Below are positions 946 through 59,770 of a stretch of 63,405 bases of DNA, piece after piece. The DNA comes from Fibrobacterota bacterium (GTDB lineage Bacteria > Fibrobacterota > Fibrobacteria > UBA11236), in NCBI GenBank assembly GCA_028287505.1, contig JAQBPN010000058.1:1-63405 (forward strand), given 5' to 3'. Below the pieces are notes generated by a model. The model was not told the DNA's origin. It made no database searches and saw nothing but the letters and a program-made list of their open reading frames with translations. The position numbers and the translations under genes were made by a program. Each line of letters starts with the position of its first letter. Within the stretch, counting starts at the first letter, position 1.

Positions 946-1024
946 GTATCCTCCGGTAATATTGGTGTTGAGGATAGAATACGCGTGTCCGGGGCCGGCG
1001 GAGTAGCCGGCGTAAAAGAAAAAT

Positions 1025-1041
1025 GGGGACGATTTGTCCTC
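1025..1041. promoter_or_regulatory. Operator-like inverted repeat, site A (upstream of repeat lipoprotein 1)
   Basis: GGGGAC-GATTT-GTCCTC, an imperfect palindrome of form GRGGAY-N5-GTCCTC. It is centred 88 bp upstream of the ATG at 945. Two more copies lie at 2511-2527 and 2666-2682. Sites A and B sit at nearly the same distance from their lipoprotein starts, which argues for a protein-binding site. The binding protein is unknown; the neighbouring TIGR02147 regulator is the obvious candidate (inference). Confidence 0.6.
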
Positions 1042-1050
1042 ATCCCATCC

Positions 1051-1062
1051 GGTACATGTACC
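1051..1062. promoter_or_regulatory. Perfect 12-bp palindrome GGTACATGTACC
   Basis: Fully self-complementary and 10 bp from operator-like site A, on the upstream side of the lipoprotein at 253-945. A related core, TACATGTA, recurs at 1162-1169. It may be a second binding site or a chance palindrome. Confidence 0.3.
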
Positions 1063-1084
1063 GCACGGTACGACTCCGGGCCAA

Positions 1085-1118
1085 CAAAAAAGGCGGGAGG
1101 TCCCTCGCCTCCCGCCTT
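1085..1118 (-). terminator. Rho-independent terminator
   Basis: An 11-bp stem (AAGGCGGGAGG / CCTCCCGCCTT) with a 7-base loop. Read on the minus strand it is followed by TTTTTTG. It begins about 60 bases after the stop of the lipoprotein gene ending at 1180 and insulates it from the next minus-strand lipoprotein gene, so the two paralogues are likely separate transcripts. Confidence 0.85.
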
Positions 1119-1179
1119 CCCCGCCTTGGATCCGCTCCGGCGGTCCGGGGCGGACAAAGGTTACATGTACGTTACGATA

Positions 1180-2430
1180 CTAGGGTTTCTCGGGGCAATG
1201 TTCCTTGAGAGATCCCTGGATGCGGACATAGTCCGCCGAAGCCGGATCCATGGACATCAGCTTCTTGCGGAGCTCATCGCAGTTGACCACGGGAGGAGCC
1301 ACCACCGGGGGCTGGGGCTCCATGCAAACGGACTTGTACTTCGCTTCCAACTCGCTGCGGGCGGCGCTGCCGGCAACGCTCGCGCCCAGGCGCAGCTTCA
1401 GGTCCATGCAGATGGAGTCATGGGGCACCGGGGGGAGGACCGAGGTGTCCTTGGGCGGCCTGACGATGGTGTCGACGGGGACCGGGGGCTTTTCCGGGCA
1501 ATGTTCGCGGAAGGATCCCTTGAGACGCTTGTAGTCGGCGGAGGCCGTATCCAGGGTCAGAAGCTTCTTGCGGAGCTCATCGCAATTGACCACGGGCGGC
1601 TTGGGCAGGGTGTCCTTGGGCGGAACCACGACGGTGTCGCGGGGAGGCTTGGGAAGCGAATCGATCGGGATCCACTCTTTGCACATAGCCGCATACAGGT
1701 GTTCCAGATCGGCGCGGCCGGGTTCACCGGGCTTCACCAGTTCCAGCTTGGCCTTGATCATCCTGCACGTGTCTTCATAGGGGTTGGGGCGCGGGGGGTT
1801 CACGATGGTGTCATGGGGAGGCTTGGGAATCGAGTCCTTGCACATGCCCAGGAACATGTGTTCCAGGTCGGTGCGGCCGGCTTCGCCGGGCTTCACCAGT
1901 TCCAGCTTTTCCCGGAGCATGCGGCAGGTATCTTCGCCCGGATCTTTGCCCGGCCCTTCGCCCGGTTCGCGGCAAAGCTTTTCATGGCGGGCGCTGTCCC
2001 CGATTTCAAGCTTGCGGCAATCCTCGGGACAATAACGCTTGTAGGAAACCGTCATCTCTTCGCGACCGCCCTCGATCTGGGAGACGATCCAATGGCAGCG
2101 GGTGTTGGAGTCCGGCACCAGGTTGGGAGGTATCACCGGAATGCCCTTGTCCGTGGCTTTCACTTCCTTGACGCAGGCCGACAGGAACGCGGCCTCGGCG
2201 GCGCTGTCCGCATGACCGCTGGTACGGGCGTTCAGGATGACGCCCCATTGTTCCCGGCACGTGCTGTCGTCCTTGATGGACAACCGCAGGGACGCATCAT
2301 CCGTGGTGGTCACCGGATCGGCTGCGGCATTGTCCTTGGATTGATCCAGGATGTTCTGACATCCCAGGAAAAGGCCTGCCGTGAGGCCAAGGCCGGTGAG
2401 TAAGCGTACGGTCGGTATGGACAGCTTCAT
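1180..2430 (-). CDS. Lipoprotein with tandem C-x27-C helical repeats and Pro-rich linkers
   Basis: Predicted 416-residue lipoprotein with lipobox LFLGC (Cys24) and a signal peptide nearly identical to the paralogue at 253-945. It contains six segments that start and end with Cys separated by exactly 27 residues (CREQWG, CRMLRE, CRMIKA, CDELRK, CMDLKL, CDELRK). Two shorter Cys-bounded segments (C-x21-C and C-x14-C) lie between the first and second. The units are joined by Pro/Lys/Asp-rich linkers such as PKPPRDTVVVPPKDT. Start: ATG at 2430 preceded by CCGGAGGTTAT; the longer in-frame upstream reading has no such site. Internal copies are very similar, pointing to recent tandem duplication. Function unknown; an extended stalk or ligand-binding array is plausible. 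Confidence 0.8.
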   Translation of the reverse strand: MKLSIPTVRLLTGLGLTAGLFLGCQNILDQSKDNAAADPVTTTDDASLRLSIKDDSTCREQWGVILNARTSGHADSAAEAAFLSACVKEVKATDKGIPVIPPNLVPDSNTRCHWIVSQIEGGREEMTVSYKRYCPEDCRKLEIGDSARHEKLCREPGEGPGKDPGEDTCRMLREKLELVKPGEAGRTDLEHMFLGMCKDSIPKPPHDTIVNPPRPNPYEDTCRMIKAKLELVKPGEPGRADLEHLYAAMCKEWIPIDSLPKPPRDTVVVPPKDTLPKPPVVNCDELRKKLLTLDTASADYKRLKGSFREHCPEKPPVPVDTIVRPPKDTSVLPPVPHDSICMDLKLRLGASVAGSAARSELEAKYKSVCMEPQPPVVAPPVVNCDELRKKLMSMDPASADYVRIQGSLKEHCPEKP

Positions 2431-2510
2431 ATAACCTCCGGTTGAAGTGTACCTGGAGATAAGGATACACGCGGGCCGGGGGTGTTGAGGGAGAAAAAAG
2501 ACCCGAAAGC

Positions 2511-2527
2511 GGGGATTATTTGTCCTC
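2511..2527. promoter_or_regulatory. Operator-like inverted repeat, site B (upstream of repeat lipoprotein 2)
   Basis: GGGGAT-TATTT-GTCCTC. It shares a 15-base core identity with site C, extending to 17 bases as GGATTATTTGTCCTCAC. It is centred 89 bp upstream of the ATG at 2430, matching the 88 bp seen for site A. It lies in the 307-bp region between the divergent lipoprotein and regulator genes. Confidence 0.65.
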
Positions 2528-2665
2528 ACCTTGAGGCTTGCCCAGCCGGATCCATTTCCGGTCCCGTTACCCTTAAAACCCTATAAAAACAGGCCGATTT
2601 GCAAGTCTGTCCAAAAATGGTCCAAAAGCAGCGGATTGGGGTGGGGACGGATTGGCGATTTTATA

Positions 2666-2682
2666 GAGGATTATTTGTCCTC
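2666..2682. promoter_or_regulatory. Operator-like inverted repeat, site C (leader of the TIGR02147 regulator)
   Basis: GAGGAT-TATTT-GTCCTC, the most symmetrical of the three copies. It is centred 64 bp upstream of the regulator ATG at 2738. A TATACT hexamer (2726-2731), a possible -10, lies between the site and the start codon. The placement would suit autoregulation of the regulator. Confidence 0.6.
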
Positions 2683-2737
2683 ACTTTTATCCCCGTTTTC
2701 ATCCATCGGACGGATGCCGGGGTAGTATACTTTGGAC

Positions 2738-3625
2738 ATGGACCCCAAGGGCGGAAACGGAGAGCAGAGCCTTTCCGGAGATCCGAAGCGGCCGGAAACG
2801 CCGCCTCAGATCCTGCAATATCTCGACTATCGCGAGTACTTGCGGGACTATTACGCCCAGCGCAAATCCGTGGAAGGCGATTTCTCCCAGCGCACCTTCG
2901 CGAAGGAAGCCGGTCTGCCTCCCTCCTGCTCCAGCCTGCTGCCCGCGATCATCAAGGGCCGCCGCCAGCTCAGCCAGAATCTGCGGATCAAATTCGGCAA
3001 GGCCATGAAACTGGGGGAACGGGAATACCGCTACTTCGATCTGCTGGTGCAGTTCAACCAGGCCAAGGGAATGACCGAGAAGAACCACTTCTTCGCGCAG
3101 CTGACCAAATTCCGCAGCTCGCGCGCGCAAATCGTGGGGGAAACCCAGTACCGTTTCTTTTCCAAATGGTATTACTCCGCGGTCTGGAACTATTTCGGCA
3201 TCGACCAGAAGCAGCGCCATCCCGCCGCCATCGCGGCCAACATCCTTCCGCCCATCACGCCCACCCAGGCGGAAGAAGCCATCAAGCTGTTGCTGGAGCT
3301 GGGCCTGATCAAGAAGACCGCGAGCGGCTATGCGGTGGCGGAACGGCATATCTATACCGAGAAGAACGTGCAGGCGATGGCGGCGCGCCAGCATATCCAG
3401 GAACTGGGCGGCATGGCCATGCAAGTGTTCCAGACGCTCCCCGCGGAGCAGCGCCAATACAACGCCCTGATGTTTTCCATTTCCAAGGACGGGTTCCAAT
3501 CCATCAAGGATCGCATCCGTTCCTTCCAGGAGGAACTGCGGGAGATCATCGACCGCGACAGCAAGGAGGACAGGGTCTATACCCTGACCATGCAGCTGTT
3601 CCCCAACAGCAAGGCGCCCGAATGA
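2738..3625 (+). CDS. TIGR02147-family putative transcriptional regulator
   Basis: 295 residues. The family hallmark YLDYREYLRDYY is at about 28-39. It is followed by a helix-turn-helix-like stretch (QRTFAKEAGLPPSCSSLLPA and the segment to KFGKAMKL, about 51-92), then the conserved EREYRYFDLLVQFNQAK region and a C-terminal domain ending in strands (RVYTLTMQLFPN). TIGR02147 proteins are abundant in Fibrobacteres and thought to be regulators, but ligands and targets are unknown. ATG at 2738 is chosen; an in-frame TTG two codons upstream is possible. There is no clear Shine-Dalgarno, and a TATACT hexamer ends only 6 bases before the ATG, so a leaderless message is possible. It is divergent from the C-x27-C lipoprotein and is followed 65 bases later by a co-directional lipoprotein. 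Confidence 0.9.
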   Translation: MDPKGGNGEQSLSGDPKRPETPPQILQYLDYREYLRDYYAQRKSVEGDFSQRTFAKEAGLPPSCSSLLPAIIKGRRQLSQNLRIKFGKAMKLGEREYRYFDLLVQFNQAKGMTEKNHFFAQLTKFRSSRAQIVGETQYRFFSKWYYSAVWNYFGIDQKQRHPAAIAANILPPITPTQAEEAIKLLLELGLIKKTASGYAVAERHIYTEKNVQAMAARQHIQELGGMAMQVFQTLPAEQRQYNALMFSISKDGFQSIKDRIRSFQEELREIIDRDSKEDRVYTLTMQLFPNSKAPE

Positions 3626-3690: not shown

Positions 3691-5157
3691 ATGTCGCCAT
3701 TCCAACGCATCGCAATCGCAGCCCGGCGCGCCGGGGTCCAATTCCCGCTTTCGGCATCGGGATTCCTTCTGGCTCTGCTGTTCGCCGCATGCGGCGACAC
3801 CCAGGTCGCGGGCACCAGTTCCGGAGTCGATAACCCCGCGCTCACCGTGGGCTTCCGGGACGCCGGAGGAGCCGCCTTGCGCGTGACAGGCGATCTGAAC
3901 GTGTATTCCGTGGATCAGAATCCCGCGGTGGATCCGCAACCGCTGGTCACCATCAAGGTCAGGAATTCATCCTTCACCAATCTCACCGGGGACGATTTCG
4001 CGCGCTTGCAGCAGGGACTGAGCAAACAGGGCGCGGCTTCCCTGCCCAAGACCGCGGCGCGCGGCGCGGCGGTCGGGGCCGGCGATTCCGCATCCACCAT
4101 CTTCAACATCATCCTCACGACCCAGGATCGCACCGGCAATCTGGTGATCGGCATCAAATACGATTCCGCATCCAGGGAGTTCTCGCGCGTGGGCGGCTCC
4201 GTGCTGACGCGCGTGGACGTGCAACCCCGGCCTTTGGTGCGCTTCGAAGCCAAGATCGCCCGCGACAGCGTGCATGGGGACGCCGGACGCATCTTCGTCC
4301 CCGGCACTCCTTACCTGGCCACCGTGGTGGACAGCACCTTCATCATCGAGGATTTGCCGGAGGGGATCTTCCCCATCCGCCTGCTCGCCGCGGACGGCAA
4401 GGTGTATCCCATCGGCGATTCCCTGAACACCCAGAACGACCTGCGCCTTTTCCGCCCGCTCCCCAATCCGGTGGGCGTCATCGACACCACCGGCGGCAAG
4501 GATTCCATTCCCGAGTTTTCGGTCACGGTCGGCGCCAATCATCAAGCCGTCATCGAACTGCCCAGCTTCCTGGAAGCCACCGTTTCCGGAGCGGGGAAAA
4601 CGGATCCCCGCCTTTCCTTTCTGTGGAGGCTGATCAAAGATGCCGGGGATTCCGGCCGGGCCGATACCCTTTTGCACGATACCCTTCCCCCGCCCAAACC
4701 CGGGGAAACCCGCAGGGCGGAAATCGTGAGCCCCACTTCGCTCCGCTCGGAAGTCAGGTTTTCCGCCGAAGGGGTCTATCAATTCGAAATCGCGGCGACC
4801 ATCGGCCTGCGCACCCGTACGGATACGGTCGTCATCTCCGTGAGCAAGCTGCCCCCGCCCCCCACGCCCAGGATCATCCAGCCCCGTCCCGGGGACTCCC
4901 TGGTCGAAGGCCGATCCTATAACATCCAATGGGAAATGCCGGACAAGGGACCCGTCACCATCCAGGTCTCCGTGAACAACGGGGAAACCTGGTCCTCCCT
5001 GGCCGAACATTATTCCGGCAAGGACAGCCTGCCCATATTTCCCTGGATCCCGGCCAAGACCCTGGGCGTGTCGCAACGCTGCCTGATCCAGGTGACGAAC
5101 GATGCGGCTCCCACCTTACGCGCCCGGATGGAAAAGCCCTTCAATCTCCTCCAATGA
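3691..5157 (+). CDS. Lipoprotein with PKD-like and Ig-like domains, partner of the TIGR02147 gene
   Basis: 488 residues with lipobox LLFAAC (Cys34). After it comes a Ser/Gly-rich spacer and a segment TSSGVDNPALTVGFRDAGG leading into VYSVDQNPAVDP. As far as I recall, similar lipoproteins accompany TIGR02147 genes in other Fibrobacterota genomes. Residues about 285-385 resemble a PKD domain (LSFLWRLIKD ... GVYQFEIAATIG). About 390-485 form an Ig-like fold (PRPGDSLVEGRSYNIQWEM ... VSVNNGETWSSLA) of the kind found in surface glycoproteins. Likely a cell-surface or periplasmic binding protein. It lies 65 bases after the regulator on the same strand, so an operon is probable. Ligand unknown. Confidence 0.8.
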   Translation: MSPFQRIAIAARRAGVQFPLSASGFLLALLFAACGDTQVAGTSSGVDNPALTVGFRDAGGAALRVTGDLNVYSVDQNPAVDPQPLVTIKVRNSSFTNLTGDDFARLQQGLSKQGAASLPKTAARGAAVGAGDSASTIFNIILTTQDRTGNLVIGIKYDSASREFSRVGGSVLTRVDVQPRPLVRFEAKIARDSVHGDAGRIFVPGTPYLATVVDSTFIIEDLPEGIFPIRLLAADGKVYPIGDSLNTQNDLRLFRPLPNPVGVIDTTGGKDSIPEFSVTVGANHQAVIELPSFLEATVSGAGKTDPRLSFLWRLIKDAGDSGRADTLLHDTLPPPKPGETRRAEIVSPTSLRSEVRFSAEGVYQFEIAATIGLRTRTDTVVISVSKLPPPPTPRIIQPRPGDSLVEGRSYNIQWEMPDKGPVTIQVSVNNGETWSSLAEHYSGKDSLPIFPWIPAKTLGVSQRCLIQVTNDAAPTLRARMEKPFNLLQ

Positions 5158-58783: not shown

Positions 58784-59661
58784 GCTCTTTTTCCTCGCGG
58801 CGCCAAAGTGCGCAAGCCGGGGCGCAGCCCCGGAACCGCGGGTGCCGGAAGGGCCGTCACCGGGAACACGTGGAAGTTCATCTGATAGACGCGATCGACG
58901 ATTTCGGTTTTCTCGGCCATTTCCAGGAGACGCCGCCGGAACGCCCGCAATTCCTCAAGCATGGCATCATAGATAGGCGCGGAAATGCTCAACGTCAACG
59001 TTGAAAAATTCCGGGTGCCCTTGGGCAGGTGGTCGATGGCATAAATGGCCAGTTCCATGGCCTGGATCTGGTACGCGCTGATCAGGGCCCTGCTGATCTC
59101 ATCCCCGGCGGTTATGGTCGCGTCGGTGCGCTGGTAGACGCCGTCCATGCCTTTGCGGATGAGCCCCAGACGCTTCAACAATTCGATCGATTTGCGGGCT
59201 TCCTGGGCCGTGATGGGCGGGTTGACCATGGCGGCCAGCGCGCGAAAGTCCCCGCGGAAGGGCCGCAGGGCTATCAGTTCGCGAACAACGGTGTGGTGCC
59301 ACTTCTCGAAATATTCCCATTGGTGCGCTTCCACCTTTTTAACGCGCGACCCGCGCAAGGCCAGCAGCCGGTCCAGGTATTCCTTCTTTTCCGAAGTACC
59401 CGTGGCCTTGGTAAAGAGCACCAGGGCCTCGAAATATTCCTTTTCCTTGCGGCGCAGACTGAACAACTCCCCGAACTTGAGGACCAGCTTAAGGGAGATA
59501 TCCTTTTTTCCGGAAAGGACATTGGCGAAGAACCCCGGCGAAGCGAAGCCGACCTTCCCGGCGATATAGCGGTAGGAAAACTTGGAGTTTTCCTCGCGGC
59601 GCTCGGCATACGCGTCGCGGAGATATTGCCGATAGTCGATGTAGTCGAAGATGTTTACCAC
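58780..59661 (-). CDS. TIGR02147-family putative transcriptional regulator (second copy)
   Basis: 293 residues, GTG start at 59661 with AAAAGGG six bases upstream, giving the usual family opening MVNIFDYIDYRQYLRDAY. HTH-like region about 27-70 (SYRYIAGKVGFASPGFFANV, then ISLKLVLKFGELFSL), RRKEKEYFEALVLFTKA, and the C-terminal domain ending RVYQMNFHVFPVT. A TTG at 59682 in frame would add seven residues. A near-perfect 23-bp palindrome is centred 98 bp upstream. Its stop overlaps the lipoprotein start downstream; the same gene order is seen for the first TIGR02147 gene at 2738. Confidence 0.92.
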   Translation of the reverse strand: MVNIFDYIDYRQYLRDAYAERREENSKFSYRYIAGKVGFASPGFFANVLSGKKDISLKLVLKFGELFSLRRKEKEYFEALVLFTKATGTSEKKEYLDRLLALRGSRVKKVEAHQWEYFEKWHHTVVRELIALRPFRGDFRALAAMVNPPITAQEARKSIELLKRLGLIRKGMDGVYQRTDATITAGDEISRALISAYQIQAMELAIYAIDHLPKGTRNFSTLTLSISAPIYDAMLEELRAFRRRLLEMAEKTEIVDRVYQMNFHVFPVTALPAPAVPGLRPGLRTLAPRGKRA

Positions 59662-59747: not shown

Positions 59748-59770
59748 ATCGTTTACCCTGGGAAAACGAT
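59748..59770. promoter_or_regulatory. Near-perfect 23-bp palindrome upstream of the second TIGR02147 gene
   Basis: Arms ATCGTTT and AAACGAT enclose CCC-T-GGG with one mismatched pair, so 10 of 11 pairs match. It lies between the esterase gene stop and the regulator start, centred 98 bp from the GTG. There is no T-run, which argues against a terminator and for an operator. Confidence 0.6.

Follow-up and report, generated by a model that had tools for sequence, protein, structure and literature searches.

The window analysed here comprises 63,405 nucleotides of a Fibrobacterota contig (JAQBPN010000058.1 of assembly GCA_028287505.1; contig C5 of a 6.07-Mb genome in 130 contigs). Near its start, two genes on the reverse strand encode lipoprotein 1 (253–945, 230 aa, lipobox FMGC) and lipoprotein 2 (1180–2430, 416 aa, lipobox FLGC), which are homologous to one another and both contain Cys-containing repeats. 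The forward strand carries the gene of a TIGR02147/DUF4423 regulator (2738–3625), which combines an N-terminal XRE-like helix-turn-helix (HTH; approximately residues 31–108) with a C-terminal winged-helix-like DUF4423 domain. A third lipoprotein gene (lipoprotein 3, 3691–5157, forward strand) begins 65 bp 3' of the regulator gene and is probably co-transcribed with it; the same order is found in the orthologues and at a paralogue of 71% identity. Lipoproteins 1 and 2 match no family in Pfam or NCBIfam and were detected only beside orthologues of this regulator. Inspection of the conserved neighbourhood for other regulators revealed none. In the related genome G005, the homologue of lipoprotein 2 has an in-frame TGA within the matched stretch of its distal portion (C47:17507–17659), which suggests that it is truncated there.

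The regulator is a full-length member of TIGR02147 (Fsuc_second), whose profile matches residues 24–292 with 240.3 bits (cut-off 50); the Pfam DUF4423 profile scores 109 bits (cut-off 30). It is one of 56 TIGR02147 matches in its genome. The AlphaFold model (mean pLDDT 88) consists of N-terminal helices (31–108) and a C-terminal winged-helix-like domain. Foldseek relates the former to C.AhdI (probability 0.98, TMt 0.65) and HigA (probability 0.87) with E-values of only about 0.5–0.7, and because these are weak, the likeness to an XRE-type HTH counts as support rather than proof. The structures nearest to the C-terminal domain are 4g6q and MarR proteins, again with weak E-values. At the sequence level, no HTH profile matches the regulator itself; of 57 relatives, 10 give an HTH_3 hit, the best with E 1.8e-4, and a sequence search of the PDB gave no useful match. 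The literature search yielded no paper naming TIGR02147 and no operator or target of this family, and DUF4423 is mentioned in a single row of a Bdellovibrio proteome table (PMC12546842). The family appears to be functionally uncharacterised, and the candidate operator described below, which is read from sequence, would be a new addition to it.

The locus contains three 17-bp inverted repeats of the form GRGGAY-N5-GTCCTC, located at 1025–1041, 2511–2527 and 2666–2682. A pattern scan confirmed these exact matches, which the original prediction had stated, and found no further one in the window. With up to one mismatch, the window holds eight matches against 1.89 expected, and none of the shuffles attained eight. 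In the rest of the genome, which was scanned by pattern matching only, the exact pattern occurs at four dispersed places. A wider regulon was sought among the other genomic matches to this loose pattern, but they are scattered, without a neighbouring target set. A better description of the site, read towards the lipoprotein genes, is GAGGACAAATNATCCCC, a dyad of 6-5-6 layout whose spacer contains AAAT/ATTT; the refined motif is GRGGAT-N2-TTTGTCCTC (GRGGATNNTTTGTCCTC). The dyad of lipoprotein 1 (1025–1041, reverse strand) reads GAGGAC-AAATC-GTCCCC and that of lipoprotein 2 (2511–2527, reverse strand) GAGGAC-AAATA-ATCCCC. Their centres precede the ATGs at 945 and 2430 by 88 and 89 bp, respectively, exactly as predicted. 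The third dyad, GAGGAT-TATTT-GTCCTC (2666–2682, forward strand), has its centre 64 bp before the ATG of the regulator gene at 2738 and is followed by ACTTTT.

Four further genomes of the genus encode orthologues of the regulator (85–91% identity), as do two genomes of a sister genus (62–64%); no other genome among the 168 of the phylum has one at such similarity or above. Exact copies of the refined motif GRGGATNNTTTGTCCTC number 13 across these 168 Fibrobacterota genomes, and 12 lie at the regulator locus, in six of the seven carriers. A single exact match is found away from it, which refutes a random genomic occurrence. The expectation that the motif would be kept upstream of orthologues was borne out at the four genus orthologues and at the 64% one: the site in the regulator's own promoter is present in all five genus genomes and in G009, which belongs to another genus. 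The seventh carrier, G008 (62%), has only the degenerate GGGGTGTTTTTGTCCCC upstream of the regulator, while two better motif copies lie on another contig with no lipoprotein or regulator gene seen adjoining. On contig C68 of G008 (L133:7589–7622), two motif-like palindromes abut directly (GAGGATAAATTGTCCTCGAGGACAAATAGTCCTC). Two genomes without a close relative (G007 and G010) contain no motif match even when one mismatch is permitted.

In a five-genome alignment of the region between lipoprotein 2 and the regulator, both divergent sites fall in the most conserved 17-bp windows, where 14 and 15 of the 17 columns do not vary, as against 13% of the columns outside the sites. The next most conserved element is a GGGGTAGTATACTTTGG block 5' of the regulator ATG. 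Sites at lipoprotein 1 with at most one mismatch to the refined motif are found in G000, G003 and G004, and a weaker one, AGGGATAGAATGTCCCC, in G002. Genome G005, which has no lipoprotein 1, has two sites instead of three, so that the number of sites tracks gene content. A 65% identical paralogue in G002 is likewise accompanied by two motif sites (at most one mismatch).

All three dyads have the same relation to a predicted -10 element. Their centres lie 52 bp upstream of TATTCT (976–981, reverse strand) for lipoprotein 1, TATCCT (2462–2467, reverse strand) for lipoprotein 2 and TATACT (2726–2731, forward strand) for the regulator. The distance to the best TATNCT-like -10 downstream is 51–53 bp in 20 of 20 promoters, although the orthologous promoters among them are non-independent observations and the -10 boxes and start sites are predicted. 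This set consists of the promoters of lipoprotein and regulator genes at the orthologous loci, those of G009 and of the G002 paralogue, and two lipoprotein promoters of the 71% paralogue (clade B); in 2000 shuffled sets, no 3-bp bin held more than 5 of the 20. The best match to a TTGACA -35 box in these promoters reaches at most 3 of 6 positions, with the reservation that this consensus may not be the phylum's own. A T-rich tract flanks most sites towards the promoter in either dyad orientation, ACTTT at the regulator and GCTTT at the lipoproteins. The two clade-B regulator promoters have the site centre 61–62 bp from the -10, one helical turn further. Transcription is predicted to begin about 24–25 nt 5' of the ATG for lipoproteins 1 and 2, and at the ATG itself for the regulator.

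The original prediction had assigned the third copy to the leader of the regulator gene, and this assignment probably does not hold. In each of the nine regulator promoters compared, 6 nt separate the end of the predicted -10 (here the conserved TATACT) from the ATG, so that the regulator mRNA is probably leaderless. The third site would then be promoter DNA, upstream of the regulator promoter marked by TATACT, and not leader.

The 71% identical paralogue, encoded on contig C85 of G000 with an orthologue in G003, represents a natural variant. Its gene order is that of the regulator locus, and the divergent genes are separated by a region with a single dyad, GGGCAC-N5-GTGCCC, common to both genomes and placed 84 bp from the start of the lipoprotein gene and 73–74 bp from that of the regulator gene. 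A scan of 11 genomes located the exact form GGGCAC-N5-GTGCCCACTT at these two clade-B loci and nowhere else. Compared with GGGGAC-N5-GTCCCC, it differs by one symmetric base swap per half-site. Near the presumed recognition helix, regulators with GTCC-type sites have P (GLP, ALP, DLP) and R (GRR, ARR), whereas those with GTGCCC sites have A (GIA) and Q (GQR). These P/A and R/Q differences match the dyad change, a correlation that involves few residues in few closely related proteins and may reflect altered specificity. A classical recognition-helix code was sought in this comparison of the two groups and was not found; the differences fall beside, and not at, the contact positions to be expected from 434 repressor.

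The equal promoter spacing, the conservation together with the regulator and the near absence elsewhere make it very probable that the sites belong to the regulator, and the three 17-bp repeats are very probably functional cis-elements of its locus. By far the most likely ligand is the TIGR02147/DUF4423 protein itself, and that it binds the dyads is a highly probable reading of the comparative data. Given binding, the position of the sites favours activation with positive autoregulation over repression, and such an effect is probable. The combined explanation, in which the dyad is the operator of the protein encoded at 2738–3625 and serves to activate the three promoters, is held to be very likely. 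A dimer would dock on the 17-bp dyad via the XRE-like HTH, with one subunit per half-site (GAGGAC/GGGGAT). From about -64, the protein would activate three promoters lacking a -35 box, namely the two that serve lipoproteins 1 and 2 and the one of its own operon, which would include lipoprotein 3. It would do so through a class-I-type contact with RNA polymerase, perhaps aided by the promoter-side T-rich CTTTT tract. Dimerisation, half-site assignment and polymerase contact are proposed by analogy.

A site at about -64 without a -35 box fits the arrangement of CRP-type promoters under class I activation, where activator sites lie near -61.5 on a grid of helical turns. Further points of likeness are that there is one dyad, placed at about -62 to -64, and that a variant at about -74 is displaced by a helical turn. 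As a putative activator, the regulator differs from CRP in its unrelated fold, in a local regulon of three promoters and in its probable positive autoregulation. With XRE/Cro-CI proteins such as C.AhdI and HigA, it may have in common the N-terminal helical fold, suggested by the model and by the weak HTH_3 signal in relatives, and a short GC-armed dyad. Unlike these, it adds a second, winged-helix-like DUF4423 domain, and its site, centred at -64, does not overlap the core promoter.

The same dyads could be bound by the same protein with the opposite effect, namely repression with negative autoregulation, either through a DNA loop or because a promoter further upstream that escaped detection is blocked. 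Divergent autoregulated HTH genes often encode repressors, and two sites 89–250 bp apart could form a loop. A loop is hard to reconcile with a site separation that varies (89, 152–157 and 250 bp) and gives no constant phasing, or with the single shared site of clade B. The sites also lie outside the core promoter, at about -64, and -35 boxes are absent, as would be expected of activator-dependent promoters. Repression is thus considered unlikely. Another, global regulator might instead own the dyad, the TIGR02147 gene being merely one of its targets. Palindromes of this size are generic, and binding by the TIGR02147 protein is a prediction. The site of a global regulator would be expected to recur, yet there is only the one exact off-locus match in 168 genomes, and the dyad changes with the adjoining TIGR02147 paralogue, which makes this explanation quite improbable.

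The repeat could also act as RNA, in the form of an attenuator hairpin, a terminator or a riboswitch-like leader, or it could be a dispersed DNA repeat. A 6-bp hairpin is possible, and T-rich sequence follows one site. Transcripts of these promoters, however, would not include sites placed 51–53 bp before the predicted -10, the spacer is conserved as well as the arms, and a dispersed repeat would not be restricted to the promoters of one locus. Such an origin is very improbable, and activation by the TIGR02147/DUF4423 protein is retained as the preferred reading.

Whether each TIGR02147 paralogue has a dyad of its own was approached in two ways. In the interval -100 to -30, dyads whose arms reach 6 or more are present in 32% of TIGR02147 regulator promoters versus 12% of shuffles; compared with other promoters of the same genome, the counts are 15 of 53 versus 19 of 92 (p = 0.2). 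Footprinting of 38 paralogue groups gave seven in which every member keeps the dyad (arm of 5 or more); column permutations gave 0.14 and mirror-repeat controls two. The latter control is the fairer one because column permutation ignores the clustering of conserved columns. Examples are GCTCTC-N5-GAGAGC (three genomes), GCTTAC-N5-GTAAGC, CGTTTAC-N4-GTAAACG and AATTCAC-N4-GTGAATT. Since the dyad content of a single genome is not significantly above that of other promoters, a family-wide rule of one dyad per paralogue is suggestive only.

The window contains a second TIGR02147 gene (58855–59658, reverse strand), upstream of which lies a dyad-like sequence of its own, CGTTTTCCCAGGGTAAACG (59750–59768, reverse strand), mostly conserved in G004 (locus L181). 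About 49 of the 56 TIGR02147 genes have a lipoprotein gene directly after them, and the two mostly overlap by 4 bases; a strict lipobox test recognised 38 of these lipoproteins and inspection by eye a further 11. Many of them have a common carboxypeptidase-regulatory-like stretch of the GGTETxN...DGxPAxGAxV type. A TIGR02147 gene and a lipoprotein gene thus look like a two-gene unit found genome-wide.

For one member of the TIGR02147/DUF4423 family, these results provide a concrete candidate site, a regulon, a promoter geometry and a natural specificity variant, GGGCAC-N5-GTGCCC, together with a testable role for such regulators in the local, self-activating control of lipoproteins. The genomes of 5–7 Mb examined in the genus each contain about 25–90 TIGR02147/DUF4423 candidates, and the method is applicable to the remaining paralogues by footprinting each one's own promoter. 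It is conceivable, at somewhat less than even chances, that the family consists of expanded, specificity-diversified activators, each followed by a lipoprotein gene of its own and each using its own dyad of shared geometry (arms of about 6–8 bp, spacer of 2–5 bp) some 50–60 bp upstream of its own -10. If true, the operator code of the Fibrobacterota regulator–lipoprotein array would be readable from sequence.
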